This document shows, one piece after another, positions 2,973-23,452 of a stretch of 23,452 bases of DNA (positions are counted from its first letter, which is position 1; the number at the start of each line of letters is the position of its first letter). The DNA is taken from positions 1 through 23,452 of the IMG/VR virus record IMGVR_UViG_3300025769_000867; one strand, 5' to 3'. Origin of the DNA: a virus. Both the position numbers and the translations under genes were made by a program. Under the pieces are notes generated by a model. That model saw nothing but the letters and a program-made list of their open reading frames with translations, had not been told where the DNA came from and did no database searches.

Positions 2973-2983
2973 ATTATATTATA

Positions 2984-5317: not shown

Positions 5318-5510
5318 TTACCTTATAATTTAGATCTTTAATAATTTCTTGTAATTTGAATGCTAAAGTATAGACTACTTGAACATCCTGTCCTTTAAAT
5401 TCGGACCTAGCTATTAATCCCAACAAATATTGAGCTTCTTCAACTGTAAAAGGGGAAGATTTAGGAACTTCAGCAGTTCCTGTTTGTTTAAGTTCTTTAA
5501 GTGTAGCCAT
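5310..5510 (-). CDS. Small helical protein of unknown function (66 aa), fibre-linked
   Basis: The frame is open from 5549, but the likely start is the ATG at 5510 (MATLKELKQTG). The longer version would overlap the end of the previous gene and its leader motif, and residues before this Met look non-conserved. The protein is 66 residues, mostly helical, with no membrane segment. Residues 25-43 (EAQYLLGLIARSEFKGQDV) align without gaps to residues 10-28 of the 49-residue protein at 913-1062. Both precede a fibre gene with the same N-terminal motif, so the pair looks like a duplicated two-gene unit. The stop overlaps the next start by eight bases. An ATATTTATC motif lies about 17 bases upstream. 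The function is unknown; a fibre chaperone or small fibre-associated subunit is a guess. Confidence 0.72.
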   Translation of the reverse strand: MATLKELKQTGTAEVPKSSPFTVEEAQYLLGLIARSEFKGQDVQVVYTLAFKLQEIIKDLNYKVNG

Positions 5511-5527
5511 AAAACTTGTTATTTTAT

Positions 5528-5537
5528 GATAAATATT
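5528..5537 (-). promoter_or_regulatory. Leader motif variant AATATTTATC before the 66-residue gene
   Basis: The minus strand carries AATATTTATC overlapping the TAA stop of the 115-residue gene and ending 17 bases before the ATG at 5510. It has one mismatch at the end of the shared motif. Confidence 0.4.
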
Positions 5538-5883
5538 ACGAGTAACCAAAATAAAATTCGTTTGATTTATAAATCATACCTCCTTCTTTAACAGTAGGAA
5601 AACTATTTCTAACTGACATGATTGGGATACCATTATTATCAATGAGAAAATAATTAGTGGAAGCATTAGTATTTTGGACTTTGAATATGTCTTCTGATGA
5701 GTTGTATTGTTTTACTGTAAGAGAAGAAGTAACAGTTACAGGAAGACTCCCACTGTTTCCTATGTGGGTGTCATATACAATCCACCCACTTGAGCTTTGG
5801 ATAGCAGCAAGGCTAAAGTCAATGTCTCCTATACCACCTCCCCCGGTACCTCCACTTGTATCTATAATAAACCTTTCTGCCAT
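5536..5883 (-). CDS. Small fibre-like structural protein (115 aa)
   Basis: The protein begins MAERFIIDTSGGTGGGG, then has a Gly-rich linker and a WIVYDTHIGNSGSLPVTVTS segment that resembles the V-Y-D-x-x-x-G unit of the two large fibre proteins. The C-terminal half has a KVQNTNASTNYFLIDNNG segment of a beta-structure type often seen in phage fibre modules. No membrane segment or enzymatic motif is visible. It is separated from the 201-residue gene upstream by 16 bases that hold an AATATTTATA motif, which ends seven bases before this ATG, and it is followed by the small helical gene. It probably belongs to the fibre or appendage set; the specific role is unknown. Confidence 0.68.
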   Translation of the reverse strand: MAERFIIDTSGGTGGGGIGDIDFSLAAIQSSSGWIVYDTHIGNSGSLPVTVTSSLTVKQYNSSEDIFKVQNTNASTNYFLIDNNGIPIMSVRNSFPTVKEGGMIYKSNEFYFGYS

Positions 5884-5890
5884 GGTCTAA

Positions 5891-5900
5891 TATAAATATT
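5891..5900 (-). promoter_or_regulatory. Leader motif AATATTTATA before the 115-residue gene
   Basis: AATATTTATA on the minus strand, ending seven bases before the ATG at 5883, abutting the stop of the previous gene. It lies in a 16-base gap that is otherwise featureless. Confidence 0.5.
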
Positions 5901-6505
5901 TAAGGTTTATAGTACTTTAAATAATCTTGATTGAGGTATTGGCCAAGGCCATAAAACTTTTCTTGTTTTTCTTTTAATGCAACTATATTACTATTTGTTG
6001 AAGCTACTACTTTAGGATCTCCTGTTATACTCCAAGGTATATTGAATGGTATCCAAGGTTTAAAATCAATTGTTGGATCTTTTTTGAGCAGTCTATCGTA
6101 ATCTTTTTTAGATATTTCTAAATAAGTAAATTCATTTCCTCGCTTGCAAAAATACCTCCTAAACTCACCTAACTTGTAGTCGTCTTGTGTTGGTGTAGTG
6201 TATTTCAATTGCGGGATATCTCGTGTAATACCCATGTCAACACCCTTTAGTATACCATACTCATAACTAGCTAGATCGTTGGTTATATACACTTTACTTG
6301 ATAAGCCTGATGGAATCTCACCGTATTCAGTGATTCGAATCAGTGGGTATACTGGGGTATCGTCTGGGTTTTTGCCTGAGAATGTGCCGCCTGTGTAGGT
6401 TTTGTGGTAATAACCTACATAGTTAGGGTTTACCCCATCAATATAATATTCTCCCCCAGGTGTGTAGAGGTTGGTTTGTATTCTATTTTTGGGGATATAA
6501 GCCAT
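5900..6505 (-). CDS. Virion-associated protein of unknown function (201 aa)
   Basis: The ATG at 6505 follows directly on the stop of the hub gene (TAAATG). The protein is Tyr- and Pro-rich at the N-terminus (MAYIPKNRIQTNLYTPGGEY), with a GYYHKTYTGGTFSGKNPDD segment near residue 31 and a charged, mixed helix/strand C-terminus. No signal peptide or membrane helix is visible. I recognise the general style of the TYTGGTFSGKNPDD motif from phage structural clusters but cannot attach a proven function. Its place between the baseplate hub gene and the fibre genes suggests a baseplate or fibre-attachment component. This is inference from position only. Confidence 0.7.
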   Translation of the reverse strand: MAYIPKNRIQTNLYTPGGEYYIDGVNPNYVGYYHKTYTGGTFSGKNPDDTPVYPLIRITEYGEIPSGLSSKVYITNDLASYEYGILKGVDMGITRDIPQLKYTTPTQDDYKLGEFRRYFCKRGNEFTYLEISKKDYDRLLKKDPTIDFKPWIPFNIPWSITGDPKVVASTNSNIVALKEKQEKFYGLGQYLNQDYLKYYKP

Positions 6506-9301
6506 TTATATGAATATAGGTTCGATTTGACCACTTTCTGCTTGGGTATAAATATTTTCGATATTATTACGGGCAGCAGGATCTATACCATTTATTCTGA
6601 TGTGGAAGTGTCTGCCTGTGGCTGCTCTAGTTAGGTCCTTATATTCGTTTATATAACTAGCTTGTTTGTCTCTGTTGCCTGCCGCAAATTGAGCTAATAC
6701 ATCTTCTACAATTTTAAGATTTGTTGAAGAAGCAGGGTTAATAGTAAAATCAAGAGCATTACCTTCTGAATGGGAAGAAACATAAGATAATCTGGTGTGG
6801 TATTTATCGTTACCTCCTGTAACCCTAACTGCTATTTGGGGGTTTCTAGATTTAAGAGCTCTAAATACTGCTATAGCATAATCTGCTAGGTTGGCTGTAA
6901 TGTCTCCTCCATTGGCTATTTCGTCCCCTTTTTCTGTGTAGCCTAATTGGGTTAATACATTTCTTAACCTATCAGCATTAGGTGTATCAGATGGTGGGGT
7001 AGTTACAGCAGGCCTACCACCAGCATAAGATGGTTTTTCACCAGGGACAAATGTCCTTTTAAGAGGTGGAGCATCTTTTAATTGTCTGGGTTTGGGGGTG
7101 CCTATACTTTCTAAAGATGTTTTCCACCCTGAATTGTCTACAGTGTGAGATATACCTTTGATTAGGAATTCAATATTATCTTGATAGTTTTGAGGTAGAA
7201 TAATATCGTTTACAGTATATTTTTGATATATTTTGGGGCCTGAGATACCATCTAGTGTGAGGTTGAGTGAGATAGGGATGAAGAATCTTGCAGGAAGTTC
7301 GTCTTTTTCTATTGCTATATCTCTTTTTGTTATAAGATAGTTTTTTCCTACAGAATATAACCTATTAATATCTTTTTCTTCTAAAGAAAATATTATATAC
7401 CTACTTAATAATGCCCCTAAATCATTAATATCCCCAGTATCTTCACCAAAAACTTCTTCTTCATATGAGGTAACTTTGGTAGGTATAACTCTATCAGTTA
7501 AACCCTCATTCCACCTTGAAATTGCTATTGAGTTTGAACCTACATCTGTGTTGTTGGATTGAGCTCCAATAGCTAACATAGAGCCCATTTGATTTGAAAT
7601 GGTACTTTCAATAGAAACATCTAATACAAAGCTGCCTTGGTTTGGGGTAAGTAAACCTACATTTATTAGAGCTGCTTCTTCAAACTCTTCTTCAGGAGAA
7701 GTTGTAATATTTTTATCTAAAATAAAATAAGTATTAACTTCCTCATCATAACTAAATTCTAAATTAGTTATACCCCCTAAAGCTTTATCTATATTGTTGA
7801 AGATAGATTTATAAAAATCAAATATTGGGAGGTTGCCTTCTTTGTCTACATTTTTGTCTAGAATATCTAGAATCATATCTATGTTTACATAGATATTTAA
7901 AGGTAAACCAACTAATTCTCCTTTGTTATTTTTATAATCTAAAAATCCTTTAAATCCTTTGTTGTTTAATTCAGATAAGTCTGCAACTCGGGGTCTTTTA
8001 GTAGTATTATCATCTTTAAAGCCTGTTATGTATTCATAATAATCCAATTTCATTTCGGATTCTATTATACAAATTCGAGGATCTAAAGAAAAGAGATCAT
8101 TTATATAAGAACAAAAATTAGTATTATTATCAGTATCAAAAAAATTTATAGGAATAGGATTCCCAGGTGAGTCGTCGTATTTGTAGAAAAAACCTTCTAT
8201 CATTCTTATTAGTGAACCTAATCTTATATAATAGTGATCCTTATTGAACCATTGACCAACTTTTACAGCATCCCTGTCTATAGCATTTTTGTCATAAAGT
8301 GATACATAAGGTTTATTGTCTAACTCACCTATCTTTTTTATATTTTCAATAGATAATTTGAGAAATCCTTCATCATCTAACCTATTTTTGATCTTCTTTA
8401 ATGTTCTAGCTAATGGACTACTTCCTGTTTCTGAGTCTTCCCCAGCTATAGGTTCCATTTCAACTGGGTTTGTGATGCTGAGGGATTCTATCACGTCCCC
8501 ATATGTTACTGCCTTTAAATTGATGTCGTAGCTGTAGTCTGAGTTAAGATTCCATTTGAAGTTTTGTACCCACCCTAAGAATGCGTCGTAATTACCATTG
8601 GAGTTTTTTCTTTGGGTAGTTATTAAGTTTTGGATTCTTGTTACATTAGCGTCTGTGTCTACATCAGGGTAGACCCCAATTATAGAATTACTTGGGTCAA
8701 ATGGAAGTGTTAAATCTAGGAATTCATCATATATCCCATGCATAGGATTTGTTTGAAGTACCCCATTATTATCAAAGTACATACTATGGCCCCACTCTAA
8801 GAGAAAAGTGTATTTTAACCTCATAAAGAGAGTTTCAATTATATTGAACTGGTCTTTATTAAAGCATTTCATTTTTATTTCAGCTATCCTTAATGAACCT
8901 CTATTTTTAGGTGTTACCTTGATGTTTTCAATAAAAGGCATGGGGGTTAATCCATATTCGGTTGATGAATTAAACCCGTATTGTTTGGTTGTATTTAAAG
9001 GGTCGGTATATGAATCTATAATACCTCCTTTAGGTTCAGATATATTGTCTCTAGAATTAACCCCATTAAATAGGATGTATTTGCTGGCTAGTTGGTTGCC
9101 TTGGTAAGTTGGGGGTATTCCCAATTTGGCACACTTTCCGGCACTTACATTGATACCAGAAGTAAGGCGGATCCAACTATTTCGGCCTGTAAGGTAGGTG
9201 TTGACTAGGTCGTTATTTTGGTTAAGGCCTAACTTTTGTTGTCTAGTTTCTATTTGGCCTCTAACGTAATCATCAAAAGTTTCTCCTATTATTTTTGACA
9301 T
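6506..9301 (-). CDS. Baseplate hub protein with C-terminal LAS-type zinc murein peptidase (931 aa)
   Basis: This large protein lies directly after the gp53-like gene. The N-terminal ~750 residues have mixed alpha/beta content with segments such as IENIKVTPKNRGSLRIAEIK, suited to a hub or spike scaffold. A Pro-rich linker (around 775-800) leads to a C-terminal domain that carries S842-x-H844-x-x-G847-x-A849-x-D851, the SxHxxGxAxD zinc signature of M15/LAS metallopeptidases, and ends with GRHFHIRI (H898 and H900), which resembles the HFHVR end of MepA-type murein endopeptidases. Such enzymes cut peptide cross-links in peptidoglycan. The fusion would play the part of T4 gp27 plus the gp5 lysozyme, locally opening the wall during injection. 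The zinc ligands are seen; substrate bond and hub identity are inferred. It starts five bases after the preceding stop, without a Shine-Dalgarno sequence. Confidence 0.8.
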   Translation of the reverse strand: MSKIIGETFDDYVRGQIETRQQKLGLNQNNDLVNTYLTGRNSWIRLTSGINVSAGKCAKLGIPPTYQGNQLASKYILFNGVNSRDNISEPKGGIIDSYTDPLNTTKQYGFNSSTEYGLTPMPFIENIKVTPKNRGSLRIAEIKMKCFNKDQFNIIETLFMRLKYTFLLEWGHSMYFDNNGVLQTNPMHGIYDEFLDLTLPFDPSNSIIGVYPDVDTDANVTRIQNLITTQRKNSNGNYDAFLGWVQNFKWNLNSDYSYDINLKAVTYGDVIESLSITNPVEMEPIAGEDSETGSSPLARTLKKIKNRLDDEGFLKLSIENIKKIGELDNKPYVSLYDKNAIDRDAVKVGQWFNKDHYYIRLGSLIRMIEGFFYKYDDSPGNPIPINFFDTDNNTNFCSYINDLFSLDPRICIIESEMKLDYYEYITGFKDDNTTKRPRVADLSELNNKGFKGFLDYKNNKGELVGLPLNIYVNIDMILDILDKNVDKEGNLPIFDFYKSIFNNIDKALGGITNLEFSYDEEVNTYFILDKNITTSPEEEFEEAALINVGLLTPNQGSFVLDVSIESTISNQMGSMLAIGAQSNNTDVGSNSIAISRWNEGLTDRVIPTKVTSYEEEVFGEDTGDINDLGALLSRYIIFSLEEKDINRLYSVGKNYLITKRDIAIEKDELPARFFIPISLNLTLDGISGPKIYQKYTVNDIILPQNYQDNIEFLIKGISHTVDNSGWKTSLESIGTPKPRQLKDAPPLKRTFVPGEKPSYAGGRPAVTTPPSDTPNADRLRNVLTQLGYTEKGDEIANGGDITANLADYAIAVFRALKSRNPQIAVRVTGGNDKYHTRLSYVSSHSEGNALDFTINPASSTNLKIVEDVLAQFAAGNRDKQASYINEYKDLTRAATGRHFHIRINGIDPAARNNIENIYTQAESGQIEPIFI

Positions 9302-9306
9302 AACTT

Positions 9307-9606
9307 TTATTTATTTAATAATTTATATTCCTTCAAGATAGAAGAAATATTAGACGGGATCCTTATTTGGTGCCCTCTTTCAGGATAAATGCTGTTGGGT
9401 TTAAATCTAGGATTGGCCGCCGCTATAATCCACCACAAAGTAGAATCATTATAGTAAGTATTAGCATATTGGTCGTACCTGTCTCCTTCTTGTGCTATGA
9501 CATAAAAATCCTGGTCTGAATAGGGGATTTCAGGGTATTTCACCCCTGGATAGTATCTTTTACCTTGGGGGGTTTTGAAGGGGTTTAAGTCTTTATACCT
9601 GTTCAT
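9307..9606 (-). CDS. LysM-like baseplate protein, gp53-type (99 aa)
   Basis: The protein begins MNRYKDLNPFKTPQGKRYYP and then carries an IPYSDQDFYVIAQEGDRYDQ segment, followed by YANTYYNDSTLWWIIAAAN and a C-terminal QIRIPSN. This is the pattern of short phage LysM-like proteins (a start of the type D-x-[YF]-V-x-x-x-x-G-D-R, the L-W-W-I-I-A-x-A-N core and a final Q-[LI]-R-I-P). T4 gp53, a baseplate wedge protein, has such a LysM-like fold, and small proteins of this type sit among baseplate genes in many myoviruses. The ATG overlaps the preceding stop (ATGA), so translation is probably coupled. It is shorter than T4 gp53 (about 196 residues), so it may match only the LysM part. The structural role is well supported; the exact equivalence is not. 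Confidence 0.8.
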   Translation of the reverse strand: MNRYKDLNPFKTPQGKRYYPGVKYPEIPYSDQDFYVIAQEGDRYDQYANTYYNDSTLWWIIAAANPRFKPNSIYPERGHQIRIPSNISSILKEYKLLNK

Positions 9607-11183
9607 GCTCCTATTAATGTTGAATTAGCATTTATAACGTTATTTTGGTTGTCAGCAATTGGGGTAAATTGGAATCCCGATACTTTTATAGCTTTGGGTA
9701 ATTGTTTTCCTGATGTATAATCGCCAACACCAATATCAAACCCAGCCTCAAATATTGGAGATAATGTAAAGCTATTTATGATACCTGGAGTGTTAACTAA
9801 ATAATCCCCAAATGTAAGTTTAAAGAAATTACCACGCAAATACCCATCAATGCTATAGCTTGGTGTTAGGTAAGCTAGGAAATTATTTAATTTATTGTAT
9901 ATTTGAAGGGTTTGATCTGGGTCTGGGGACATTATAGTGAAGTCCATAGAGATAGATCTGGTGAATCCCTTGTATTTGTATGAGGGGTATCCTCTACCTA
10001 CATAAGTGTAGGTATCGTGTTCGGAGTTTATTTGGTCTGAGAAGCTATCAATATAGGCTTGCCAATAAACATAGCGAGGGGTAGATGGATTATCTGCCGA
10101 AATTGCTGCTAAATAAAACTTGAATAATTGAGTGTCGGGAGCTTCTTCAGTAAAATTGGCTTTATTTAATGCTTTAGTGTTAGCTTTGTTGAATGTATCT
10201 ACTGACACATCACTACCTGCTCTATAACTAGAAGTTACATATTTTATTTCGGGTTCGTAATTTGAAATGCTAGAGGCGTATGTGCCTTTCCTAAATGCAG
10301 TTTTTAGTGTAACGGATGTATCTTTGTCTTTAGAACCAGCTCCATAAGTTACATTAGATATAGATCCTGAAGGGTTGTTTTGGTTGAAGTAAGTTCTAGA
10401 ATTAGCAATTTTTTCTTTAGACCTATTTCGCGAATCTTCTATAGATGTACCTGAGTATCCTTGGGATCCAACTGTGAATTCTGTTCTTCGTATATTAGTT
10501 TTCAATCCAGTAATGCCAGCCCCAGGTCCTCCAGTATAATTTTGGAGTAAATTTGGATTGGATACGTCAACCCCATGGTCTCTATTTAGTGGGATTGGAA
10601 TTTCAGGTATACTTGCTATGAATCCTTCATTAAAGGCTTGAGCACCAAGTATATCAAATGCCCCAGTTAAATTACCTATATCCCCTGCAAATGGAGAAGA
10701 TGGGGGTGGTGTGAACGATCCCCCACCAATTTTGGAATTTTTGAGTATAAGGAGTTTGTTAGTTTTTTCCTCGTTATACTTAATTTTATATATATCGTTG
10801 TACCTATTGCTATTGTCTTCTCCACTTATACCCAACAAATTTAAATGACCTCCAACAGCATTAGTTGCAGTTTGGAGTAAAGTATTTAGGGGGTTGTATA
10901 AGTTTTTGGGGTTGCCTATTATTTTAGGATTTTGGGCTGCTAGAAGATTTTGGTTGGTTATGAATCCTAACCCTTTAGGAGTAGTTAGGAATTTACCTAT
11001 CCTAGCTCCATCCTCAATACCTCTAATTAATGCTCCTTGTCTTAAAAGAAAGTCAGGGGAAGCCCCAGGTGGGTTTTCAGGTATCTCTTTCTTGATGAAA
11101 GGTTCCCTACTACTCCCTAAATCAGGTCTGTCTAACCCATACTTTAAAGACTTGAGGTCAGTTTTGAGGTTAAGTAATCCCAT
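9603..11183 (-). CDS. Baseplate / tail-tube initiator candidate with tube-like C-terminal domain (526 aa)
   Basis: The first ~340 residues are Gly-, Asn- and Ser-rich and low in recognisable motifs. The C-terminal part (about 353-515) is a globular domain with AYIDSFSDQINSEHDTYTYV, then GRGYPSYKYKGFTRSISMDF, then a YNKLNNFLAYLTPSY helix and a LRGNFFKLTFGDYL strand. This resembles the tube-type fold used by tail tube and tube-initiator proteins such as T4 gp48 and gp54. The position after the tape measure gene and before the gp53- and hub-type genes matches the T4 order 29-48-54. I therefore infer a baseplate component on which the tube is polymerised, but cannot choose between gp48 and gp54. 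It starts three bases after the 76-residue gene and its stop overlaps the next start. Confidence 0.68.
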   Translation of the reverse strand: MGLLNLKTDLKSLKYGLDRPDLGSSREPFIKKEIPENPPGASPDFLLRQGALIRGIEDGARIGKFLTTPKGLGFITNQNLLAAQNPKIIGNPKNLYNPLNTLLQTATNAVGGHLNLLGISGEDNSNRYNDIYKIKYNEEKTNKLLILKNSKIGGGSFTPPPSSPFAGDIGNLTGAFDILGAQAFNEGFIASIPEIPIPLNRDHGVDVSNPNLLQNYTGGPGAGITGLKTNIRRTEFTVGSQGYSGTSIEDSRNRSKEKIANSRTYFNQNNPSGSISNVTYGAGSKDKDTSVTLKTAFRKGTYASSISNYEPEIKYVTSSYRAGSDVSVDTFNKANTKALNKANFTEEAPDTQLFKFYLAAISADNPSTPRYVYWQAYIDSFSDQINSEHDTYTYVGRGYPSYKYKGFTRSISMDFTIMSPDPDQTLQIYNKLNNFLAYLTPSYSIDGYLRGNFFKLTFGDYLVNTPGIINSFTLSPIFEAGFDIGVGDYTSGKQLPKAIKVSGFQFTPIADNQNNVINANSTLIGA

Positions 11184-11186
11184 ATA

Positions 11187-11417
11187 TTAGAATGTTCTAC
11201 CTTCAGGAGCAGTATTTCTGTAGTTGTTTTTAGGTACAGCCCCATTTAAATCCAAACCAGAAGCTTTAGGTAAGTTGCCTAGTTTAGGATTTCCATTTAA
11301 AGAATACTCGTTGTGTAATTTAGATTCTTTAGTACCAAAGAAAGAACCAGCTGGTACTACTGGTGGGTTGTGAGTGAATGGGGAAGTTCCCTGGTTGTAT
11401 TTGTCTAGAAGTGCCAT
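11187..11417 (-). CDS. Small proline- and asparagine-rich protein, unknown function (76 aa)
   Basis: This 76-residue frame lies between the tape measure and the tube-initiator candidate, with 18- and 3-base gaps. It opens MALLDKYNQGTSPFTHNPPV and has a middle KESKLHNEYSLNGNPKLGNL segment. It is Pro-, Asn- and Gly-rich, probably largely unstructured, with no membrane segment or Cys pair. I do not recognise the family. The position among tail assembly genes suggests a minor virion or assembly protein. The AATATTTATAA motif ends only two bases before the ATG, which is the closest spacing in the window and would give an almost leaderless message if the motif is a promoter. Confidence 0.65.
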   Translation of the reverse strand: MALLDKYNQGTSPFTHNPPVVPAGSFFGTKESKLHNEYSLNGNPKLGNLPKASGLDLNGAVPKNNYRNTAPEGRTF

Positions 11418-11435: not shown

Positions 11436-13811
11436 TTATTGGAGTTTATAAGACCCAACAGTTAGAGCAGTACCAACTTTAGTACCATCTAATTCTATTG
11501 TTCCTTCTTTAGCTAATATAGCTTGTAGTGTGGTATTCATTCTATTCATTTGCTCTACTAGTGGAGCTATGTTTATAGATGGGGAGGTAGAGGCTGTTTC
11601 TGTTTTACCACCACCTAAATTAGTACCTGCTATAATAGTGTCGTTGTCGTTAAGTGCTATGGAGCCTTCAGGGCCAAATAGGGTGCGTTTACCATATCCA
11701 TTTCCTCCCGGGGGTGGTGAAAATATGTCGTCACCATACATGGCTGTGGCTGATCCTATAGTAGCTAATAAGCCTGCTGTAGCTCCAATAGCTAATGGGA
11801 GACCAGCACCAAAAGGTATTTGTAAGAAGGATTGGTATATACTTGCTATTGAAGTTACTAATGATTTTACAGCTATCCCTGCAAGTATTCCTACTAAAGC
11901 AGAAGCTAATATTTTAGATTCAGCTATATACCCAACTACAGCAGCAAACCCATCTATTATAGGAGCTAATATAACTCCAATGTTGCCTAATACTTCCTGT
12001 ACTTTAGCGATAGATGCTTGGAATTTTTCAGTTGCACTTTGAGTAGCTAGTGCCTCGTATGTAGTTTCACCATAAGCATCTTTAAATTCTTCAGCACTCA
12101 TAGCAGCAAACTTTTGGCTAAGGGCCATTTGGGCCAATTGGTCTCTACTTATTCCTAAACTTTTAGCTAATGCTTCTTGTTGGATTCGGTTTTGGGAAGA
12201 GAATGCTGCTACTACTTCTTCATTTTTAGCTATTTCATTACTAAGACCCTCTAGGTCGTTAGTAAGAGCAAAGTATCTGGCTCTTTCAAGATTAAGTTGT
12301 TTTCCAGTTAGCAATTCTGCTTCTAATTCGGCCTCTATACTAGATTCAAATTGGAGGAGGCTTTCAGCTACTTTATCTACCTCACTTAAAGATAATCCTA
12401 ATTTGCGGGCTTGGCGGGCGGCCCTAGCTAGGGCCTCAGGAGAAAAACCTAAAGATCCTGCTATAGATTTACTAGCAGAAGATATATCTTGGAGAACTTG
12501 TTTAACATTAACCGCCACTCTATCCTGCTTATTCATAGCACTTACAGTAGCTACAGTATTGGATAATATATCTTCAGTATTTTCACCCTGGGCTCTAGCA
12601 AAAAGTGCTAAGTTTCCTGCTGATTCTTCGCTGAGTCCTAGTTGTTTATTTAAAGTGGTGAATGAAACAAGAGTATCGCCTCCAAAGTCAGCTATGAAGC
12701 CCGTTTGCTGTGTTAGGTCTGAGAATGCTTTTTGGAGGTCTTGACTAGTTACGTATAATTTTTCGCTATTAGCTGCTGCTAAACCAAGTTCTAGTCTTAG
12801 GTTGAGGGCAGATTTATAGTCAACACCTAAAGTTTTTTGTATGTTTGCTATATCATCACTTCCTTTGATCATAGCATCAAAGATAGCACTAATTACAACT
12901 AGAGGATCTTTAAGGTTGGATATTAATTGAACCCCAGCCTCTCTTAACCCCCCTCCTAAAACCTTTAATTTATCTTTAAATGTTATTTCTTCACCAGTAG
13001 CTGCTGCTTTTTTGGCTAAATCTTCCATCCCCTCTTTAACACTATCTAAACCTAAAGCATCTTTAAGTCTACCTAGCCCCATTTTATCAAGGGCTTTCCC
13101 CATACCATCTATAGCGGCCCCACCTAAACCTAAAGCCTCATTGACTCGTTCTTCTTCAGCTATGCGAGCTTGGATTTTATCATTGATGATAGTATAAAGA
13201 GAGCCTTGTTCTTCTAATAACCCAGATGCTTCATCATAAGCATTATTAGTTAAACGTAAATCTTCTTTAGTTTTTTCTATTTCTCTTCCTCTTTCCCTTA
13301 TTTGTTTATTTAATTCTCTTCTTCGGGCTACTGAGATTGAGGCACTTCTTAATTCGTTTTGGGCTTGTTGTTGTTGGGATATTAAGGATTGTTTTTCAAC
13401 ATCAAGAGAATTTTTTTTATTTTCTAATAAGTCTTTAGAATTTTCTAGATCTCCTACTTTAGATTGGAATTTTTTCTCTAAAGTTTTTAAGTCTTTAAGA
13501 TTTAACTCAGTAATCCCTGATTGGTCGTCACGAAGTTTTTTAGCTACATCGTCAATGCCCCTAAAGGCTTTTTTAGTGTTGTTTAAAACAACATTTGTCT
13601 TTGACATAGCATCTAAAGATGCATTTATAGAACCCCTAATATCACCAAAATCGTCGTTAATAGCATCAAGTCTATTCTCTACACCTCGCAAGGCATCTTC
13701 TAGTTTTCTTACATCGGTTTCTTGCCTAGAGAATGGATTAGTTTCGCCTAGTCTTCTATAGGCTCTGTCTAATTGGTCTAGCAGTTTTCTAATTTCTTCT
13801 GGAGATGCCAT
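11436..13811 (-). CDS. Tape measure protein (791 aa)
   Basis: This is the longest helical protein in the tail cluster. Residues ~90-215 are highly charged and Gln/Lys/Glu-rich, typical of coiled coil. A central helical region follows, then a hydrophobic stretch at about 636-693 (beginning ASALVGILAGIAVKSLVTSI and continuing GLPLAIGATAGLLATI) that could form membrane-spanning helices. The tail end has a GKRTLFGPEGSIALNDNDTI segment and a short C-terminal helix. Tape measure proteins extend through the tail tube lumen, set tail length and can insert into the host membrane. T4 gp29 is shorter (590 residues), so a longer tail than T4 is inferred. The gene directly follows the tail chaperone, the canonical order. 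It has an ATATTTATAA motif 15 bases upstream. Confidence 0.88.
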   Translation of the reverse strand: MASPEEIRKLLDQLDRAYRRLGETNPFSRQETDVRKLEDALRGVENRLDAINDDFGDIRGSINASLDAMSKTNVVLNNTKKAFRGIDDVAKKLRDDQSGITELNLKDLKTLEKKFQSKVGDLENSKDLLENKKNSLDVEKQSLISQQQQAQNELRSASISVARRRELNKQIRERGREIEKTKEDLRLTNNAYDEASGLLEEQGSLYTIINDKIQARIAEEERVNEALGLGGAAIDGMGKALDKMGLGRLKDALGLDSVKEGMEDLAKKAAATGEEITFKDKLKVLGGGLREAGVQLISNLKDPLVVISAIFDAMIKGSDDIANIQKTLGVDYKSALNLRLELGLAAANSEKLYVTSQDLQKAFSDLTQQTGFIADFGGDTLVSFTTLNKQLGLSEESAGNLALFARAQGENTEDILSNTVATVSAMNKQDRVAVNVKQVLQDISSASKSIAGSLGFSPEALARAARQARKLGLSLSEVDKVAESLLQFESSIEAELEAELLTGKQLNLERARYFALTNDLEGLSNEIAKNEEVVAAFSSQNRIQQEALAKSLGISRDQLAQMALSQKFAAMSAEEFKDAYGETTYEALATQSATEKFQASIAKVQEVLGNIGVILAPIIDGFAAVVGYIAESKILASALVGILAGIAVKSLVTSIASIYQSFLQIPFGAGLPLAIGATAGLLATIGSATAMYGDDIFSPPPGGNGYGKRTLFGPEGSIALNDNDTIIAGTNLGGGKTETASTSPSINIAPLVEQMNRMNTTLQAILAKEGTIELDGTKVGTALTVGSYKLQ

Positions 13812-13840: not shown

Positions 13841-13862
13841 GAGCATCACTTTTGTGATGCTC
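13841..13862 (-). terminator. Hairpin at the end of the chaperone extension
   Basis: A perfect 9-bp inverted repeat (GAGCATCAC/GTGATGCTC) with a 4-base loop spans the stop codon of the frameshift extension. On the minus strand it is followed by TCCTATATTTATAAC, only partly T-rich, so it is a weaker terminator candidate than the one at 14894-14919. It could also attenuate read-through into the tape measure gene or stabilise the 3' end. The late-promoter-like motif starts a few bases downstream. Confidence 0.5.
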
Positions 13863-14142
13863 CCGTATTGTACATAGGTCTACTAGCTTTCTTGAATTCG
13901 GCTTTATTTATGTTGCCTGAAGGGTCAATTAGATTGGTAGAGTTTTTGGTTGTTGCTTTATCGTATTGTTCTTTTTCTTCCTTATAGAATTTGGCTATTT
14001 CCTCGTATGTGAATTTTCTTAGCCAAGTTGGCATATTATATACGTCTGCTATGTTATATCCTCCTTTACCATGAAATACAATTTCATGTATTTGTTTGAA
14101 TAGACTACGCCTAGCTAGAGGTATGTTATCATAGGTCAGGCC
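13846..14142 (-). CDS. Frameshift-encoded C-terminal extension of the tail assembly chaperone (98 codons)
   Basis: In the frame +1 to the 241-residue chaperone ORF, translation is open from GGC at 14142-14140 to the TGA at 13846-13848, with no stop in the 36 codons before the first ATG at 14034. The sequence reads RRSLFKQIHEIVFHGKGGYN, then IADVYNMPTWLRKFTYEEIA. The D-V-Y-N-M-P-x-[WY]-L-R-x-F pattern resembles the tail of phage tail chaperone families. No Shine-Dalgarno lies at a proper distance before 14034, and coding character runs across that Met, so a free 62-residue gene is the weaker reading. With a +1 shift after F237 the fused protein would be 335 residues. The alternative is a T-run length error in assembly. 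The stop codon lies inside a hairpin. Confidence 0.7.
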   Translation of the reverse strand, partial: GLTYDNIPLARRSLFKQIHEIVFHGKGGYNIADVYNMPTWLRKFTYEEIAKFYKEEKEQYDKATTKNSTNLIDPSGNINKAEFKKASRPMYNTGASQK

Positions 14143-14854
14143 AAAAAAAGTTTAAATTAATTGGGATAGTGATCTCCTCGTCACCATCTGTTGTGAACGT
14201 TAAATCTACGTCCGGTTGTACTTCTTTTATATGTTGCCTAAGTGCTCTAGAATCGCGTGCTAGGAGGTGGTTGTCAACAAAATTCCTAATGGTTTTAGTT
14301 TCGCTGTCTCCTTGAACTGAGGTAAGTATGTATTTTAGCCTAGTGGTTAGTTCTGGAGAGGCATTTTTGTGAATTTTCTTGAGGCCTGTTATTTCTTTGT
14401 CGATTTTACTTTCATCATGTCCTGTTAGTATTTTGAATGTAACAGGAATGTTGCTGTGGGGTAGGGTAAATTCGAATTGGTTTTCTCCATTTACAATAGA
14501 GGACTCATCAAATGGTTTGTTTTCTAGGGTAGATAAATCTACAGTATGGCTTTCCCCACCATATGAAAATGAATAGTCTTTACCATAACCTAAAACACGA
14601 GCAGCCACTAGCAAAGCGTTTTTGTCCCCCACAATAAGATCCTTAATGTTAATTGGGGATATTATAAGGGATTTAAGTAGCTCGTCAAGTACTATACCTT
14701 TATCAATGTAGGATTGGTTTGTTAGTATATCTTCCTCTCTAGCAGTCATGTATTTCATTTCGACTTTACCAGATGAGAGAGGATTGTCTTTAGGGTATAG
14801 GAGGCCTTTGGAAGGCAATTCTATAACTTCTGTTGGGAATTTAAATTCACTCAT
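14129..14854 (-). CDS. Tail assembly chaperone, T4 gp26-like family (241 aa, unshifted form)
   Basis: The protein begins MSEFKFPTEVIELPSKGLLY and carries the E-L-P-S-K-G-L-x-Y opening, a KVEMKYMTAREEDILTNQSY segment near residue 30 and an IKDLIVGDKNALLVAARVLG segment near residue 75. This is the pattern of the T4 baseplate-hub gp26 family found upstream of tape measure genes in T4-like phages. These proteins act during assembly of the hub and tape measure rather than in the finished tube. The unshifted frame ends NFFWPDL at the TGA 14129-14131, just after seven T residues at 14143-14149. A second form made by frameshifting is likely (see the extension feature). The gene is preceded by a terminator hairpin and an AATATTTAT motif. 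Confidence 0.82.
   Translation of the reverse strand: MSEFKFPTEVIELPSKGLLYPKDNPLSSGKVEMKYMTAREEDILTNQSYIDKGIVLDELLKSLIISPINIKDLIVGDKNALLVAARVLGYGKDYSFSYGGESHTVDLSTLENKPFDESSIVNGENQFEFTLPHSNIPVTFKILTGHDESKIDKEITGLKKIHKNASPELTTRLKYILTSVQGDSETKTIRNFVDNHLLARDSRALRQHIKEVQPDVDLTFTTDGDEEITIPINLNFFWPDL
14143..14149 (-). promoter_or_regulatory. Candidate frameshift site (run of seven T)
   Basis: The minus strand reads AAC TTT TTT TGG in the chaperone frame. The P-site Phe tRNA on the second TTT can re-pair perfectly after either a +1 or a -2 move because all seven bases are T. Either move enters the frame that runs into the C-terminal extension. The two frames overlap only from the TAA at 14152-14154 to the TGA at 14129-14131, and the T-run is the only slippery element in that interval. 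Frameshifting in phage tail chaperone genes is well known; use of this site is inference. Confidence 0.6.
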
Positions 14855-14938: not shown

Positions 14939-15424
14939 TTAGAAGTTCAATACGCAGTAGTCTGGCTGTACTGTCATGGAGATTTCTATTGCTCCTTCGT
15001 TGTCGTAGTTGTAATCACCGAAGGTAGATTCTGTAATCATAGCTCCCTTAATGATCCATTCGGAAACGATATCACCTACAGGTCCAAGGACATTGAATGT
15101 CAAGTCCTTTTTGTAAAAGTCAGAATAACCATCTCTACCAGTTACAGATTCATGGTGCAATCTTGCCCATTCCATTACAGCTTGTGCTCCGGAAGGTGTG
15201 ATTGGGTCAAACAATGTGAACGCTATAGTGTTCCACTTTGTTTTACCTTTCACATATCTTTGAATGTTAATGTGGTTAAGCTCAACTGAACCATTCGTAA
15301 ATGATACAGCTCCTATCCCCTTTACCATATAAGATGGAAAACCATCTATATACATGATGAATCTATTCTGTTGTTTAGGTTCAAACGGGGTAAAAAATAT
15401 TTCGTTTGGATCTAGTACTGCCAT
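14939..15424 (-). CDS. gp19: Tail tube protein (161 aa)
   Basis: The protein is 161 residues, almost the same as T4 gp19 (163). It opens MAVLDPNEIFFTPFEPKQQN and continues RFIMYIDGFPSYMVKGIGAV. The middle has the ELNHINIQRYVKGKTKWNTI stretch and an ALHHES-like helix (EWARLHHESVTGRDGYSDFY). It ends with EGAIEISMTVQPDYCVLNF. This is the conserved architecture of T4-type tail tube monomers, which stack as hexameric rings around the tape measure and carry DNA and the hub into the host. It directly follows the sheath gene, the expected order, and is followed by a strong terminator, consistent with high expression of both. An AATATTTATAA motif ends 12 bases before the ATG. Confidence 0.92.
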   Translation of the reverse strand: MAVLDPNEIFFTPFEPKQQNRFIMYIDGFPSYMVKGIGAVSFTNGSVELNHINIQRYVKGKTKWNTIAFTLFDPITPSGAQAVMEWARLHHESVTGRDGYSDFYKKDLTFNVLGPVGDIVSEWIIKGAMITESTFGDYNYDNEGAIEISMTVQPDYCVLNF

Positions 15425-15465: not shown

Positions 15466-17547
15466 TTATGCTGGGAATTCAGCACCAGTTGGCAATACAT
15501 TGAAATCGAGAATTATGAATTCTGCTGTTCTTGTTGGTTGGATAAAGATCTGACCAACTAATTGATTTCTGTCTATTACGTCTGGTGTGTTGTTTGAATC
15601 ATCCATTACAACCTTAAAGGCATATACACCTTGTCTTTGTTGAACACTTTCCATGTATGGGTTAACCTGTGCAAGGAAGCTGTTTCTAGTAGCTGCTGTG
15701 TTTTGTTCAAACACTAAGTTGTTGGCTACTTGGCTGATGTATCCTTTCAACTCAATCAACAATCTTCTAACATTTACGCGGTCGAGAGCAGATGCTTTCT
15801 TCTGCAATGTTTTCTGACCGAATACTACTGGGCCAGTTGCTGGGAAGTTTGCGATTGGGTTAACGTTTGCTTCATATAAAGTGTCGCGGTCAGCTCTTTG
15901 CAATCTTCTTTCTGGTCTAACCACTTGAGTTAATCCACCTCTGTTGATACCTGCTGGTGCGAACCATGGTTCTGCTGCTGCATCGTTTGCTGCATAAACA
16001 CCTGGGATTAGTACTGAAGCAGGGACCCAATCTGTTTTACCAGTGTCTGGGTTGATAATTTGGACCCAAGGCCAGTAAGTAGCTGCGTAGCTTGAGTTAA
16101 TGGCATTTGCTTGTCCTACAGTTCCTAAAATAGTACTTCCGTATTTTACTAAATCAACTACTGCTAAAGCATCTCCTCTATTTTGAGTATTAGTAACTAA
16201 AGTGTTTAATTGAGATGTATGGCCACCTACTCCACTTACTTCATGGATCAAACCAGGAGCAGTAATTACGTTGTATTGGTACTCGTCTTTGTTAGTAAGA
16301 AGGTCAATTGCTACGTCATAATTAGATCCTGTTAAACCTTGAGTATTGATATCTATATTTTTATTAAAGAGAGGAGTAACTCCAGCTGGGATTAGGGCGC
16401 CCATTCCATTATAGAAAGAACCGCTACCTAAAGTTGGGATATATCCTTTGTAGGTGGTTTTAGCTACTCCATTATTATCAAAATAATCAGGAGTTTTAGC
16501 TAAGACGTCCGATACATACACATATCTACTTCTGCTAGGATTTTCACCAACAGTTTCTATATAGCGATTTTCGTCATCATCTGTTTGAACTTGTTGATAT
16601 GAATCACCGATTCTTTTAGAGATATAGTTGTCTGATTTTGGATCTAATGAAAGGTTAGTAAATGTTTCAAGAATTACTTTTTCATTAGTAGTGTCATTAC
16701 CTCTTCTAATTAAGAGAGTAAATGTTCCTTTTTCTTCATCTCTTTGTGAAATTTCCCATCTAAGATTATCTTCACTTCCACTAATTAAAGCTCCATTAGC
16801 ATCTTCAGATCCTGAGTTGTTCATGATTACCCCCTCAGAGAAGGTCTTTAACATGAAAGTATTACCTGAGATTCCAGTACCACCACTAAGTGTTAAGGCA
16901 ACCGAGTTCTCATTTATTAAATGCCAGTAAGAACCTGTTGATACTGTAATAGTGTTACCAGCCTCTCCAGCAAATGAAGCTGTGAGAGATAAGGTAGTTC
17001 CATCATGGGATGCAGTAAAGTATTGGGGAACTTTAGCGTTAATTTCACTAGCTAAATCTGCTCCTGTACCTGTATTATAGTAGTAAAGGTTTAGATTTGG
17101 ATAATCCTGGACTAGTTCAGATGCTGAGATAAAGGTATAATTAACCCCATCATAATTTAGTCTAACTCCATTGAGTTCGTCTGGGAGGTAGTTGATTGAT
17201 CCTGAGGCTGGGTTACCAGATCCACTAACGTTAGGGACTGTAGTACTAATGGCAGGTTCAAAAGATTCTGCTGTTACCCTAGTAACCAATAAAGTACTAC
17301 CACCATTTTGGAAATAGTTGTATGCGGAGAGAGAAGTAAGGTAAGAATGGACATCTCCATTGTATGTGAAGGTAGTTCCAAATTTATTCTTAAACTCACT
17401 ATATGAGGTTACTACTGTAGGTATTTCAACAGGTCCCTTAACTGTAGGGCCGATTATGGCGGCTCCTACCTCTACGGGTTGTGCTGTAATGAATGACTGG
17501 TCGTTTTCTCTTGTAAATACACCAGGTGATACTATCTGTTCTGCCAT
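15466..17547 (-). CDS. gp18: Tail sheath protein (693 aa)
   Basis: The protein opens MAEQIVSPGVFTRENDQSFI, the conserved beginning of contractile sheath proteins, followed by VEVGAAIIGPTVKGPVEIPT and an EFKNKFGTTF segment. The C-terminal part has an LRRLLIEL-like helix (RVNVRRLLIELKGYISQVAN), VFEQNTAATRNSF, then VGQIFIQPTRTAEFIILDF at the end. These are the features of the C-terminal inner domain by which sheath subunits bind the tube and link their arms. It is slightly longer than T4 gp18 (659 residues), with the extra residues likely in surface domains in the middle. It is followed by the tail tube gene as expected. The leader has an AATATTTATAA motif ending 12 bases before the ATG, overlapping the stop of the small gene upstream. 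Confidence 0.95.
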   Translation of the reverse strand: MAEQIVSPGVFTRENDQSFITAQPVEVGAAIIGPTVKGPVEIPTVVTSYSEFKNKFGTTFTYNGDVHSYLTSLSAYNYFQNGGSTLLVTRVTAESFEPAISTTVPNVSGSGNPASGSINYLPDELNGVRLNYDGVNYTFISASELVQDYPNLNLYYYNTGTGADLASEINAKVPQYFTASHDGTTLSLTASFAGEAGNTITVSTGSYWHLINENSVALTLSGGTGISGNTFMLKTFSEGVIMNNSGSEDANGALISGSEDNLRWEISQRDEEKGTFTLLIRRGNDTTNEKVILETFTNLSLDPKSDNYISKRIGDSYQQVQTDDDENRYIETVGENPSRSRYVYVSDVLAKTPDYFDNNGVAKTTYKGYIPTLGSGSFYNGMGALIPAGVTPLFNKNIDINTQGLTGSNYDVAIDLLTNKDEYQYNVITAPGLIHEVSGVGGHTSQLNTLVTNTQNRGDALAVVDLVKYGSTILGTVGQANAINSSYAATYWPWVQIINPDTGKTDWVPASVLIPGVYAANDAAAEPWFAPAGINRGGLTQVVRPERRLQRADRDTLYEANVNPIANFPATGPVVFGQKTLQKKASALDRVNVRRLLIELKGYISQVANNLVFEQNTAATRNSFLAQVNPYMESVQQRQGVYAFKVVMDDSNNTPDVIDRNQLVGQIFIQPTRTAEFIILDFNVLPTGAEFPA

Positions 17548-20407: not shown

Positions 20408-20418
20408 TTATAAATATT
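20408..20418 (-). promoter_or_regulatory. Leader motif AATATTTATAA before the gp13-like gene
   Basis: Full match on the minus strand, ending ten bases before the ATG at 20397. It overlaps the stop codon of the split subtilase, so it starts the neck gene set. Confidence 0.55.
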
Positions 20419-21466
20419 AAGTCATTTTAAGTGGGTTAGCTAAAGCATAAGGCCAATGAATAGAATAAGTTGGAGCTCCATTTAGGGATATTTGCCCAGT
20501 TCCCCGATTTGTTCCTATACCCCACTTACTTAAATTTCGAATATTATTTTTATGGATACTCCCAGTATAATCAGGTCTATTGAGTGGATCTTCAGTAAAT
20601 ATTTTTAAAGTTTGGTGTTCTTTTATAAAATCTTTAAATTGTTGTGGAGTTGCTTGAGGATTCATTTGAAGATAAAGGGCAGCCATGCCAGATACTTGGG
20701 GGGCTGCAAATGAGGTTCCACTTAGAGACCCCATTACATAGTTAGATCCTTCATAGTCTGGGTTATAAAGGGAATAATTAACTGAGTATTTAGGGATAAT
20801 TCGGGTGCCTGAAGGGAGTCCAATATTAGGGTCACAGGCTAGCATTATGCTTTGACCTGCTGCGAAAGTATCAACAGCGGGGCCTACTGAGGAGAAGTAG
20901 GCTACTGTGGAGAGTCCTTTTTCTTGTAAGGTATCCCAACCAGGAAAAATTTCATCTCCACCAATACCTAACTTAATATCATGGAATGGGTAAGCAGTTT
21001 CTTCAGTCCACATTAGAGAAGGTGCCCAAACATGAGTGTATGGGCTTAATTGGATGTCTGAGAAGTTTAGGTTGCCGCTACCATGTTTAGGACTATCTCC
21101 ATAGATGTTGTAAGGGATAATACCATAATATGGGTTAGTTTCATCATCTATAGGTGAGGAGGGGATTGTAGCTTCAGGAGATAAAGCCCCTACTATAATA
21201 GTTCCTTCTCCAGCCCAATCTGCTCTATTAGAATAGATCGGATCTCCGGCATTGAGATAAATACCAAGAGCCTCAGCGTCTTCTCCTGTATAAAAAGCAG
21301 TATTAAGCATAGTAATAGGATAAGTTCTAGTAATGTAGCTATTGTATATTTCACTAAAATACTGGGGGTTATTTTCGTAATAATCTCGTGATATTATAAC
21401 ACTAAAATTCCCAGCAGCTTTAACCGTAAAAACATTTTCCTCAGTAAGTTGATCTATTAATTCCAT
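20417..21466 (-). CDS. C-terminal half of a split subtilase (oxyanion Asn and catalytic Ser)
   Basis: This frame encodes 349 residues with the second half of a subtilisin (S8) catalytic domain. Residues 16-20 are the AAGN oxyanion-hole motif with Asn20. Residues 250-255 are GTSFAAP with the catalytic Ser252, followed by the usual alpha-helix (QVSGMAALYLQMNP). GPAVDTFAAG near residue 195 is another conserved subtilase segment. The Asp and His motifs are missing from this chain; they are in the upstream ORF 21457-22611. The ATG at 21466 overlaps the end of that ORF by ten bases in the -1 frame. A true two-chain enzyme, a ribosomal -1 shift, re-initiation or an assembly error of one base are all possible. 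It ends just before the gp13-like gene. A role in virion processing or host-surface proteolysis is inferred. Confidence 0.85.
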   Translation of the reverse strand: MELIDQLTEENVFTVKAAGNFSVIISRDYYENNPQYFSEIYNSYITRTYPITMLNTAFYTGEDAEALGIYLNAGDPIYSNRADWAGEGTIIVGALSPEATIPSSPIDDETNPYYGIIPYNIYGDSPKHGSGNLNFSDIQLSPYTHVWAPSLMWTEETAYPFHDIKLGIGGDEIFPGWDTLQEKGLSTVAYFSSVGPAVDTFAAGQSIMLACDPNIGLPSGTRIIPKYSVNYSLYNPDYEGSNYVMGSLSGTSFAAPQVSGMAALYLQMNPQATPQQFKDFIKEHQTLKIFTEDPLNRPDYTGSIHKNNIRNLSKWGIGTNRGTGQISLNGAPTYSIHWPYALANPLKMT

Positions 21467-22611
21467 TTCGATTTTGTAGAGTGGTATGTATTACTAGAAG
21501 AGTAAAAATACCTCATATTATGAGTTTCATCAAAGGTATTATTTTCACCAGTTAATCCTAATGAATTACCTTTATAATATATTTGATCTATTTTAGTTTC
21601 AATATCGGGGGGGAGGATGACATCAAATCCCCCACTGGATCCTACAGGGGTGAGGTATAAGCCTATGCTGAGGTTCATTACTGTAGGTCTTTTGTACCCA
21701 GTATTAGGGTCTACTGATTTAGATACATGGAAATGTCTAATACATTCAAGAGCTTCTATGGAATTTCCATAATGAGCTACAGAAGGATCTGTTTCGAGAT
21801 ACCCCCCATCAGCAATACTGCCTATAATTCTAAAGTCATAGATATGAGCATTTTTAGCCCATCCTGCAAGTCTACCGGCTGCTACAGAAGCTACTGATAA
21901 GCCGTGGCTGCTGTGGTAAAAATATGGGTTATAAAAATTATTCCCTAAAGTTCTACCAGGAATGTGCTGATACCAATCATAATATTTAACTCTGGTTTGG
22001 CCTTTGCTATCAAGTAACTCAGGGTGGTTTCGGGATCCCCAAACCCCAGCATCTACTATAACAATATCTACTCCAGTTCCATCTAAACTATAATTATAAG
22101 AATTAATTCTGTCTGATCCTGTTTTATATGATCCAGTGTCAGGACCATAAATGTCTCCAACTCCATTAAAAGACCATAAATCTTCCCAATCTACTTTGTC
22201 TTTGTATTTAGTATGATATTTTAACCCCCAATTAAGTGGAGCAGCACCTTCAAGGAACAAACCAGTGGCGGATATATTATTAAACCATAAATTAGATGAA
22301 TACCCATTATATCCTGTTCCTATATAATACCCATCTTGTTGAAGAGCTACTTCGTACTCTTTTAATACAATTTTTTCTACGATTTTTATATCAGGATAAA
22401 GTTTAAGTTGAGCTGCTTCAGCATCACTTAATTTGTAAGATTTAAATCGTGGGTTATCGTAATCTCGTTCTACCCCAACAGGTCTATCTGGGAAGTAAAA
22501 TCTGATAGTGGCGTTTTCTTGAGATGTATCTTGTTTAAGGTTTTTATCAACAAATTCGATAGAAATCCCTTTTTGGGTCATTACACCATATTCAAAATAA
22601 GTAGTAGCCAT
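21457..22611 (-). CDS. N-terminal half of a split subtilase (Asp and His of the triad)
   Basis: The chain is 384 residues. Residues ~55-85 resemble the end of an I9-type inhibitory propeptide (SYKLSDAEAAQLKLYPDIKI then VEKIV). The subtilase core begins around 178 with GTGVDIVIVDAGV, where D187 fits the catalytic Asp in D-[ST]-G (here DAG). H236 lies in HSSHGLSVASVAAG, the H-G-x-x-V-A motif, and RPTVMNLSIG at about 308-317 is the conserved strand before the Ser-pocket. The frame ends in TAA at 21457-21459 before the Asn/Ser half. There is no signal peptide. It starts two bases after the stop of the upstream paralogue, so they are co-transcribed. Because both halves retain intact motifs, the break is recent, functional or a sequencing artefact. 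Confidence 0.87.
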   Translation of the reverse strand: MATTYFEYGVMTQKGISIEFVDKNLKQDTSQENATIRFYFPDRPVGVERDYDNPRFKSYKLSDAEAAQLKLYPDIKIVEKIVLKEYEVALQQDGYYIGTGYNGYSSNLWFNNISATGLFLEGAAPLNWGLKYHTKYKDKVDWEDLWSFNGVGDIYGPDTGSYKTGSDRINSYNYSLDGTGVDIVIVDAGVWGSRNHPELLDSKGQTRVKYYDWYQHIPGRTLGNNFYNPYFYHSSHGLSVASVAAGRLAGWAKNAHIYDFRIIGSIADGGYLETDPSVAHYGNSIEALECIRHFHVSKSVDPNTGYKRPTVMNLSIGLYLTPVGSSGGFDVILPPDIETKIDQIYYKGNSLGLTGENNTFDETHNMRYFYSSSNTYHSTKSKWN

Positions 22612-22613
22612 GA

Positions 22614-23452
22614 TTATGTGTATTTTATTGAGATATTTTTATATTGCACAGAAGAAGAAATAGCATAAGGGTTATACAGTATACCACCAGGTTCACCATT
22701 AGTATAAAGATTTTGGGACCCAGACTCAACCCAAAAAGAATTAAGTTTTCCTGGGGTTGTAGTGGAGGGGGTTAGATAATTGTTATACAAAAAATATTGG
22801 GGGGATTCATTATCATTATTTGGGATAACTTTTGCATTGGTTGACCTTAACCAATTTCTAACATCTTTTACATTAGCAGAAGGATTAATTTGAAGATAGA
22901 GACAAACCAGCCCAGCAACTGTAGGAGAAGCAGCTGAGGTTCCTCCACCTCGTGAATCCCCTAATGTGTAATGGAATAGAGGGCCTGTGGATTCGTTTAA
23001 AGCAATTGGGTAATTTTCAGTTAAAAAATCAATAACTGATTGAGAGTTGAATTGTATTTTGGCGTATTGAGGGTGAATAACAGTATCATTAAAGGTATAA
23101 GGACCATTGGTTGGGGATGCTGTAAGGGCATAAGAAGCCAAAGCGAATGTATCAACAGCAGGGCCCCTGCAGGAGACTGGGGAGAGGTGGATTCCAGCTG
23201 GGCTGAGTGATGTGTGTAAGGTGAATCCTCTAAGGTTAGTTAGTAGGCCCGCTTGAATAGTACTTCCATTAGAGTTTAAATTAGGTAATAAAAATTTTAT
23301 AGGAGTATTAGCTAAAGCTACAGAGCCTATAGTTATATCTCTTTCAAAATAGGTAGAATTAAGATAATTACTTACCATGTAGTCTTCTAAAAAAGGGTTA
23401 TTATCTAAAGAAGAAGAACATGAACTTGGAAGACTCCTATTTCCAGCGGCCA
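22614..23452 (-). CDS. Subtilisin-like serine protease, 5' end beyond the window
   Basis: The frame stays open from the stop at 22614-22616 to the right edge, giving 278 visible codons beyond the first in-frame ATG at 23378. That Met is not the true start, since the 24 codons upstream of it (23379-23450) encode AAGNRSLPSSCSSS, which carries the oxyanion-hole Asn. The catalytic Ser is in GGTSAASPTVAGL (Ser148 counted from the Met at 23378), and RGPAVDTFA is the same conserved segment as in the adjacent subtilase. The Asp and His motifs must lie outside the window. It is a paralogue of the split subtilase next to it, with only two bases between the genes. Whether this gene is intact cannot be judged. 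A virion or maturation protease role is inferred from context. Confidence 0.86.
   Translation of the reverse strand, partial: AAGNRSLPSSCSSSLDNNPFLEDYMVSNYLNSTYFERDITIGSVALANTPIKFLLPNLNSNGSTIQAGLLTNLRGFTLHTSLSPAGIHLSPVSCRGPAVDTFALASYALTASPTNGPYTFNDTVIHPQYAKIQFNSQSVIDFLTENYPIALNESTGPLFHYTLGDSRGGGTSAASPTVAGLVCLYLQINPSANVKDVRNWLRSTNAKVIPNNDNESPQYFLYNNYLTPSTTTPGKLNSFWVESGSQNLYTNGEPGGILYNPYAISSSVQYKNISIKYT

Follow-up and report, generated by a model that had tools for sequence, protein, structure and literature searches.

In phage lambda, the tail assembly chaperones gpG and gpGT are a short and a long form that share an N terminus, made by frameshifting just upstream of the tape measure gene (reviewed in PMC5009743). 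The lambda shift is -1, and shifts of -1, -2 or +1 are already known for the tail chaperones of different phages; that of a tail gene in the haloarchaeal myovirus HSTV-2 is cited as very likely +1 (PMC5009743). For T4-like phages, PMC12846349 describes chaperone frameshifting as -1 with poly-T. The short and long chaperone forms of T4 itself are two genes according to Vladimirov et al. 2022, as cited in PMC10885494. In this study, we examined a 23,452-base viral record of environmental origin, IMGVR_UViG_3300025769_000867 (the whole stretch is called the window here), in whose tail module on the minus strand an open reading frame (ORF) of 241 amino acids, ORF1, is followed by a conserved extension of 98 codons in the +1 frame, ORF2. 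With a probability of about 0.9, we read this locus as the tail assembly chaperone gene of a T4-like contractile-tailed phage, predicted from sequence comparison to yield a short and a long form by a +1 frameshift.

The likeness to lambda G/GT considered here is one of layout: two forms with a common N terminus would be made by frameshifting just upstream of the tape measure gene, but by +1 in a contractile-tailed, T4-like phage, whereas lambda uses -1. HSTV-2 would share the +1 shift in a myovirus tail chaperone gene as proposed here; its host is archaeal, and the resemblance considered is one of mechanism. In T4, the N-terminal part (PHROG 150) and probably also the C-terminal extension of gp26/gp51 are homologous to those of the window, but the two forms are separate genes, in contrast to the single gene with a +1 slip proposed here. 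Vladimirov, Gautam and Davidson (2022, Virology 566:9) reportedly identified the tail chaperone genes of T4-like phages and are said to have found frameshifting in several T4-like groups. Outside the phages, the +1 site of bacterial prfB (RF2), for which UUU is among the next best slip codons after CUU (PMC10885494), uses the same slip codon, CUU.U, as some relatives of the window locus (immuto type).

In the proposed mechanism, most ribosomes would read ORF1 to its stop and release the 241-amino-acid short form. In a minority of ribosomes, presumably while tRNA-Phe in the P site is paired with the second UUU and the A site presents UGG, a one-base forward move (UUU.U to UUU) would let reading continue as GGC CUG ACC, giving a long form of 335 amino acids (237 + 98 residues). 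We infer that this slip happens, at what efficiency and on which of the two UUU codons, from the comparisons below; likewise, chaperone function is assigned by analogy with lambda G/GT, in which case binding of the tape measure protein would fall to the shared N-terminal part, and recruitment of tail tube subunits to the extension.

Conservation of the proposed slip site and the shifted extension

ORF1 (14129..14854, minus strand; the N-terminal chaperone part, T4 gp26-like) ends in frame as AAC TTT TTT TGG CCT GAC CTA TGA, with the 0-frame TGA of the short product at 14129..14131 shortly after a run of seven T residues (14149-14143, minus strand), as a sequence-only reading of the window had described. 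In the +1 frame, no stop interrupts the reading from 14151 until the one at 13848-13846, and the second TTT is followed by GGC CTG ACC. ORF2 (13846..14142, minus strand; the C-terminal chaperone part, gp51-like) thereby comprises 98 sense codons, 36 of which precede an ATG at 14032..14034. The sequence-only reading gave these same counts but took this ATG for the only one in the frame; it is merely the first, with a second at codon 90. The D-V-Y-N-M-P-x-W-L-R pattern noted earlier is present in the shifted frame. The coding strand of the window has two runs of seven or more T residues, and only in the one studied here are the first six T residues two in-frame TTT codons of an ORF.

Relatives were collected in two ways. 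A first set of 80 viral contigs encoding ORF1 relatives was fetched with several peptide patterns, one of them on the slip site, while a second scan used a single pattern; since this pattern lay far from the site, the conservation of the site was not produced by the search. Queries with SP-15 and RM378 against viral contigs returned only themselves, and a scan of bacterial genomes with the LR756508 protein found no relatives. In all but one of 221 distinct relatives, the conserved extension lies in the shifted frame seen in the window, and 216 were scored +1 by script. Among the other five, both frames are open in L215 and L244 and the conserved domain is in +1; the same holds for L252, in which the contig end cuts the sequence, and L038 is cut directly after the site. 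The sole deviating relative, L087 (LR756511), carries its extension in the other frame, where it has an ATG of its own, and possibly represents a further arrangement. The relatives thus keep the two ORFs separated by the same shift, which supports the frameshifting that the sequence-only reading had predicted.

To assess coding selection on the extension, we compared 43 relatives whose stop lies at the same position, over the stretch from the 0-frame stop to the internal ATG. Here the +1 frame contained 0 stops and had a ratio of nonsynonymous to synonymous differences per site (pN/pS) of 0.32, with a pS of 0.69 uncorrected for multiple hits, versus 183 and 81 stops and pN/pS values of 1.28 and 1.05 in the other two frames. 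This indicates that the extension is under coding selection already before the ATG. Among TTTTTT-bearing sequences, the dual-coded CCT GAC after the site is nearly invariant at synonymous positions, and the 0-frame end FFWPD is conserved too. Judged by these sequences, the conservation of the shifted extension is not chance.

Probable direction of the shift and other routes to the extension

The commonest site in the relatives, TTT TTT TGG, by itself permits a shift of +1 or -2, and the sequence-only reading had left both open. Variant sites among the relatives now favor +1. These include AGC TTT CTT TGG in the Flavobacterium phage immuto, TTT CTT TAC in others, GAA TTT TTT CAC in SP-15, GAA TTC TTT CGT in GXN1, and AAC TTT CTA TTC in LR756508. 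A +1 slip keeps pairing in the variant sites (UUU.C to UUC, or CUU.U to UUU), and the re-pairing P-site codon is conserved as UUU.U or CUU.U in nearly all relatives and as UUU.C in SP-15 and GXN1. The slip pair is CTT TTT (GAC CTT TTT TGG) in L227, L235 and L239, with the UUU.U step retained. The site is not of the -1 type X XXY YYZ, with an extension in -1 at U UUU UUZ: C or G stands before the run, and the extension lies in +1. A -2 slip as in phage Mu (PMC5009743) would reach the same frame and add one extra Phe, and the T7 run of the window alone would let an A-site UUU re-pair two bases back; in immuto, GXN1 and LR756508, however, -2 pairing is broken where +1 is feasible. Since relatives with interrupted runs and the same two-ORF layout permit +1 and not -2, the direction is, as far as site sequences can tell, most likely +1, and we leave -2 only a slight chance.

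The other routes to a long product bypass ribosomal slippage altogether. Slippage of RNA polymerase on T7, yielding some mRNAs with six or nine U residues, has in its favor the homopolymer at the site and the fact that polymerase slippage is known on longer runs. Against it, 206 of 210 distinct relatives with TTTTTT have a run of exactly 7, the run never exceeds 8, and C/G bounds it on its 5' side. Broken runs exclude such slippage in the relatives that have them, and we rate it a slighter chance still than a -2 slip. Translation of ORF2 as a separate gene, either from the ATG at 14034 or, in relatives, from a +1-frame TTG or GTG farther upstream, would agree with the fact that an annotator would call the 62-amino-acid ORF and with a +1-frame TTG that lies just upstream of the run in many relatives, about 11-12 nucleotides (nt) after a Shine-Dalgarno (SD)-like element described below. 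Against this, +1-frame selection is already present upstream of the ATG, which is the Met of the NMPxWLR motif and probably no start, being TTA or TTG in 2 of 48 aligned relatives and missing in a Flavobacterium phage; in addition, the window and several relatives lack any start codon before it, and genes of the window mostly have no SD sequence. No usable separate start is therefore conserved. Initiation at 14034 was rejected because selection extends upstream of this ATG and the ATG is not conserved as a start, and a separate gene in any form appears less probable again than polymerase slippage. Finally, homopolymers are error-prone, and an error of sequencing or assembly in the T run could have split one continuous gene. 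A miscalled run length is nevertheless very unlikely, the least probable of all these explanations, because the same T7 recurs with the frequency given above in about 200 distinct sequences and in the isolate genomes of RM378 and Mel-JY01, and the 0-frame end is itself conserved. A +1 ribosomal frameshift thus accounts best for the layout.

Protein families and homologues in the -1 frame

The sequence-only reading had placed ORF1 in a T4-like gp26 family, and profile searches agree. ORF1 matched PHROG 150 ("baseplate hub," the family of T4 gp26) over residues 5-238 with an expectation value (E) of 2.9e-8. Most of ORF1 also matched a cyanophage gp26 profile (E 2.9e-9); the latter match ends at the FF pair, which is also where T4 gp26 ends. 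ORF2 matched cyanophage gp51 in a profile-profile comparison (E 2.2e-5) and PHROG 634 directly only weakly (E 0.078). T4 gp51 matches PHROG 150 to its end and, through residues 207-244, the cyanophage extension as well (E 2.1e-5), so that T4 has the short and the long form as two genes. By these profile matches, ORF1 is homologous to T4 and cyanophage gp26, and ORF2 probably to gp51. A Pfam search with both ORFs gave sub-threshold matches only, and a sequence search of solved structures gave nothing usable. A structure model of ORF1, built with an alignment of the window and viral-contig sequences, reached a predicted local distance difference test score (pLDDT) of 90.9.

In cyanophage homologues (S-PM2 and relatives), the proteins are homologous and the same Phe-Phe codon pair serves as the slip site, but the extension lies in another frame. 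It is in -1 at T TTT TTC (U UUU UUC in the mRNA) in 63 of 63 distinct sequences, always with T before the pair; the 0-frame stop follows right after the site, and in many a TGGAGGG-like element stands 11-17 nt upstream (-17 to -11). Atu_ph07 and PA5oct are also -1. In a tree of ORF1, the 19 rows with a +1 extension cluster together (90/88; 88% of bootstrap trees), with -1 rows on both sides. This topology would fit a single change from -1 to +1; given midpoint rooting and the long branches of RM378 and T4 gp51, we infer the direction of that change from it only with caution. We would give even odds that the frameshift direction switched once within one homologous family, from -1 (U UUU UUC, close SD) to +1 (S UUU UUU UGG, distal SD-like element), via small changes around the same Phe-Phe pair.

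The comparison suggests that related T4-like phages reach the same tail chaperone pair by three routes: slipping by -1, slipping by +1, or splitting the genes. Between homologous sites only few bases differ, so that the determinants of direction could be tested by swapping few bases. No description of a +1 clade or of a direction switch in the gp26/gp51 family was found in the literature searched, which did not cover the full text of the 2022 Vladimirov paper. As for annotation, hundreds of environmental phages appear to have a single chaperone gene where a "baseplate hub" gp26 and a short "hypothetical" ORF behind it are annotated. In the public records L081, L084, L085, L089, L090 and L091, the extension is given as a separate short hypothetical gene, as gp51 or not at all, and the joined product is missing.

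Possible signals around the proposed slip site and neighboring genes

Signal statistics were obtained from 97 relatives less than 75% identical, and a wider set was used for further codon counts. The base directly 5' of the run, which in the window is the C at 14150 (third base of AAC, minus strand), is C or G in 93 of the 97 relatives versus a background of 21% (binomial p about 1e-57, without correction for kinship). When the preceding codon encodes Asn, it is AAC in 39 of 40 cases; in the wider set, Gly is GGG in 25 of 27 and Lys AAG in 8 of 8, compared with 10% and 19% in the rest of ORF1. A plausible cause is that -1 is avoided, since T would complete a U UUU UUU site, but A is avoided before the run as well, which this idea does not explain. 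Among relatives that carry TTTTTT, L165 alone has a T in this place (AAT TTT TTT TGG, eight T residues) and offers a natural test of -1 avoidance.

Farther upstream, the window has an SD-like GAGGAG (14174..14179, minus strand) that starts 30 nt before the first T of the run. In relatives, a GGAGG-type element mostly starts 28-33 nt upstream of the run and lies about 25 nt upstream, spanning -33 to -24. An SD-like 5-mer occurs within 45 nt upstream of the run in 67 of the 97 relatives versus 10.5% of other windows, and the two Glu codons at the element are GAG in 39 of 46 and 36 of 45 cases, versus 22% elsewhere. By the motif used, an SD sequence precedes only 1 of the 20 window genes checked, so the element stands out. 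If the direction did switch once, as considered above at even odds, G/C before the run and the distal GGAGG would be undescribed parts of a +1 signal. Folding downstream of the site is modestly stronger than elsewhere (mean z of -0.9 to -1.1 versus -0.1 to -0.5). The prfB site combines a stop codon with a close SD, neither of which is present at the window site.

Several observations weigh against a +1 chaperone frameshift at this locus. To our knowledge, SD-like elements in frameshift cases lie closer than the one seen here. The UGG after the slip pair is neither a stop nor an obviously starved codon, which leaves the cause of a pause unexplained. No conserved stem-loop was detected around the site: with RNAalifold, 49 ungapped relatives yielded no structure and a subset of relatives only a weak four-pair stem, in runs that did not model pseudoknots as such. 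Two sites, LIS04 (TTT TTT AGT) and LR756508 (TTT CTA TTC), require the first TTT to slip. Also, the top fold matches of the ORF1 model are weak, with YqbN (3klu; Z 5.7), which we take to be an XkdN-type tail chaperone, and the HK97 tail assembly chaperone (2ob9; Z 4.9) both below the caution level of Z 8.

The gene order around the locus is tube, ORF1, ORF2, tape measure. Directly upstream of ORF1 lies the tail tube gene (14939..15424, minus strand; PHROG 4542, E 9.9e-26), preceded by the tail sheath gene (15466..17547, minus strand; PHROG 23, E 8.1e-75). The gene directly downstream (11436..13811, minus strand) encodes 791 amino acids and gave no clear family match of its own in the PHROG search; it is labeled tape measure by position, since immuto and SP-15 share the gene order and have a tape measure annotation on the large gene that comes next. 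Large proteins of 931, 777, 630 and 526 amino acids in the tail region (1080-9301 and 9603-11417, minus strand) had no PHROG family match at the thresholds used. At 20417-23378 (minus strand), three adjacent ORFs each correspond to part of the same long proteins in PHROG (phrog_9158 and phrog_3677) and may be split or duplicated domains.
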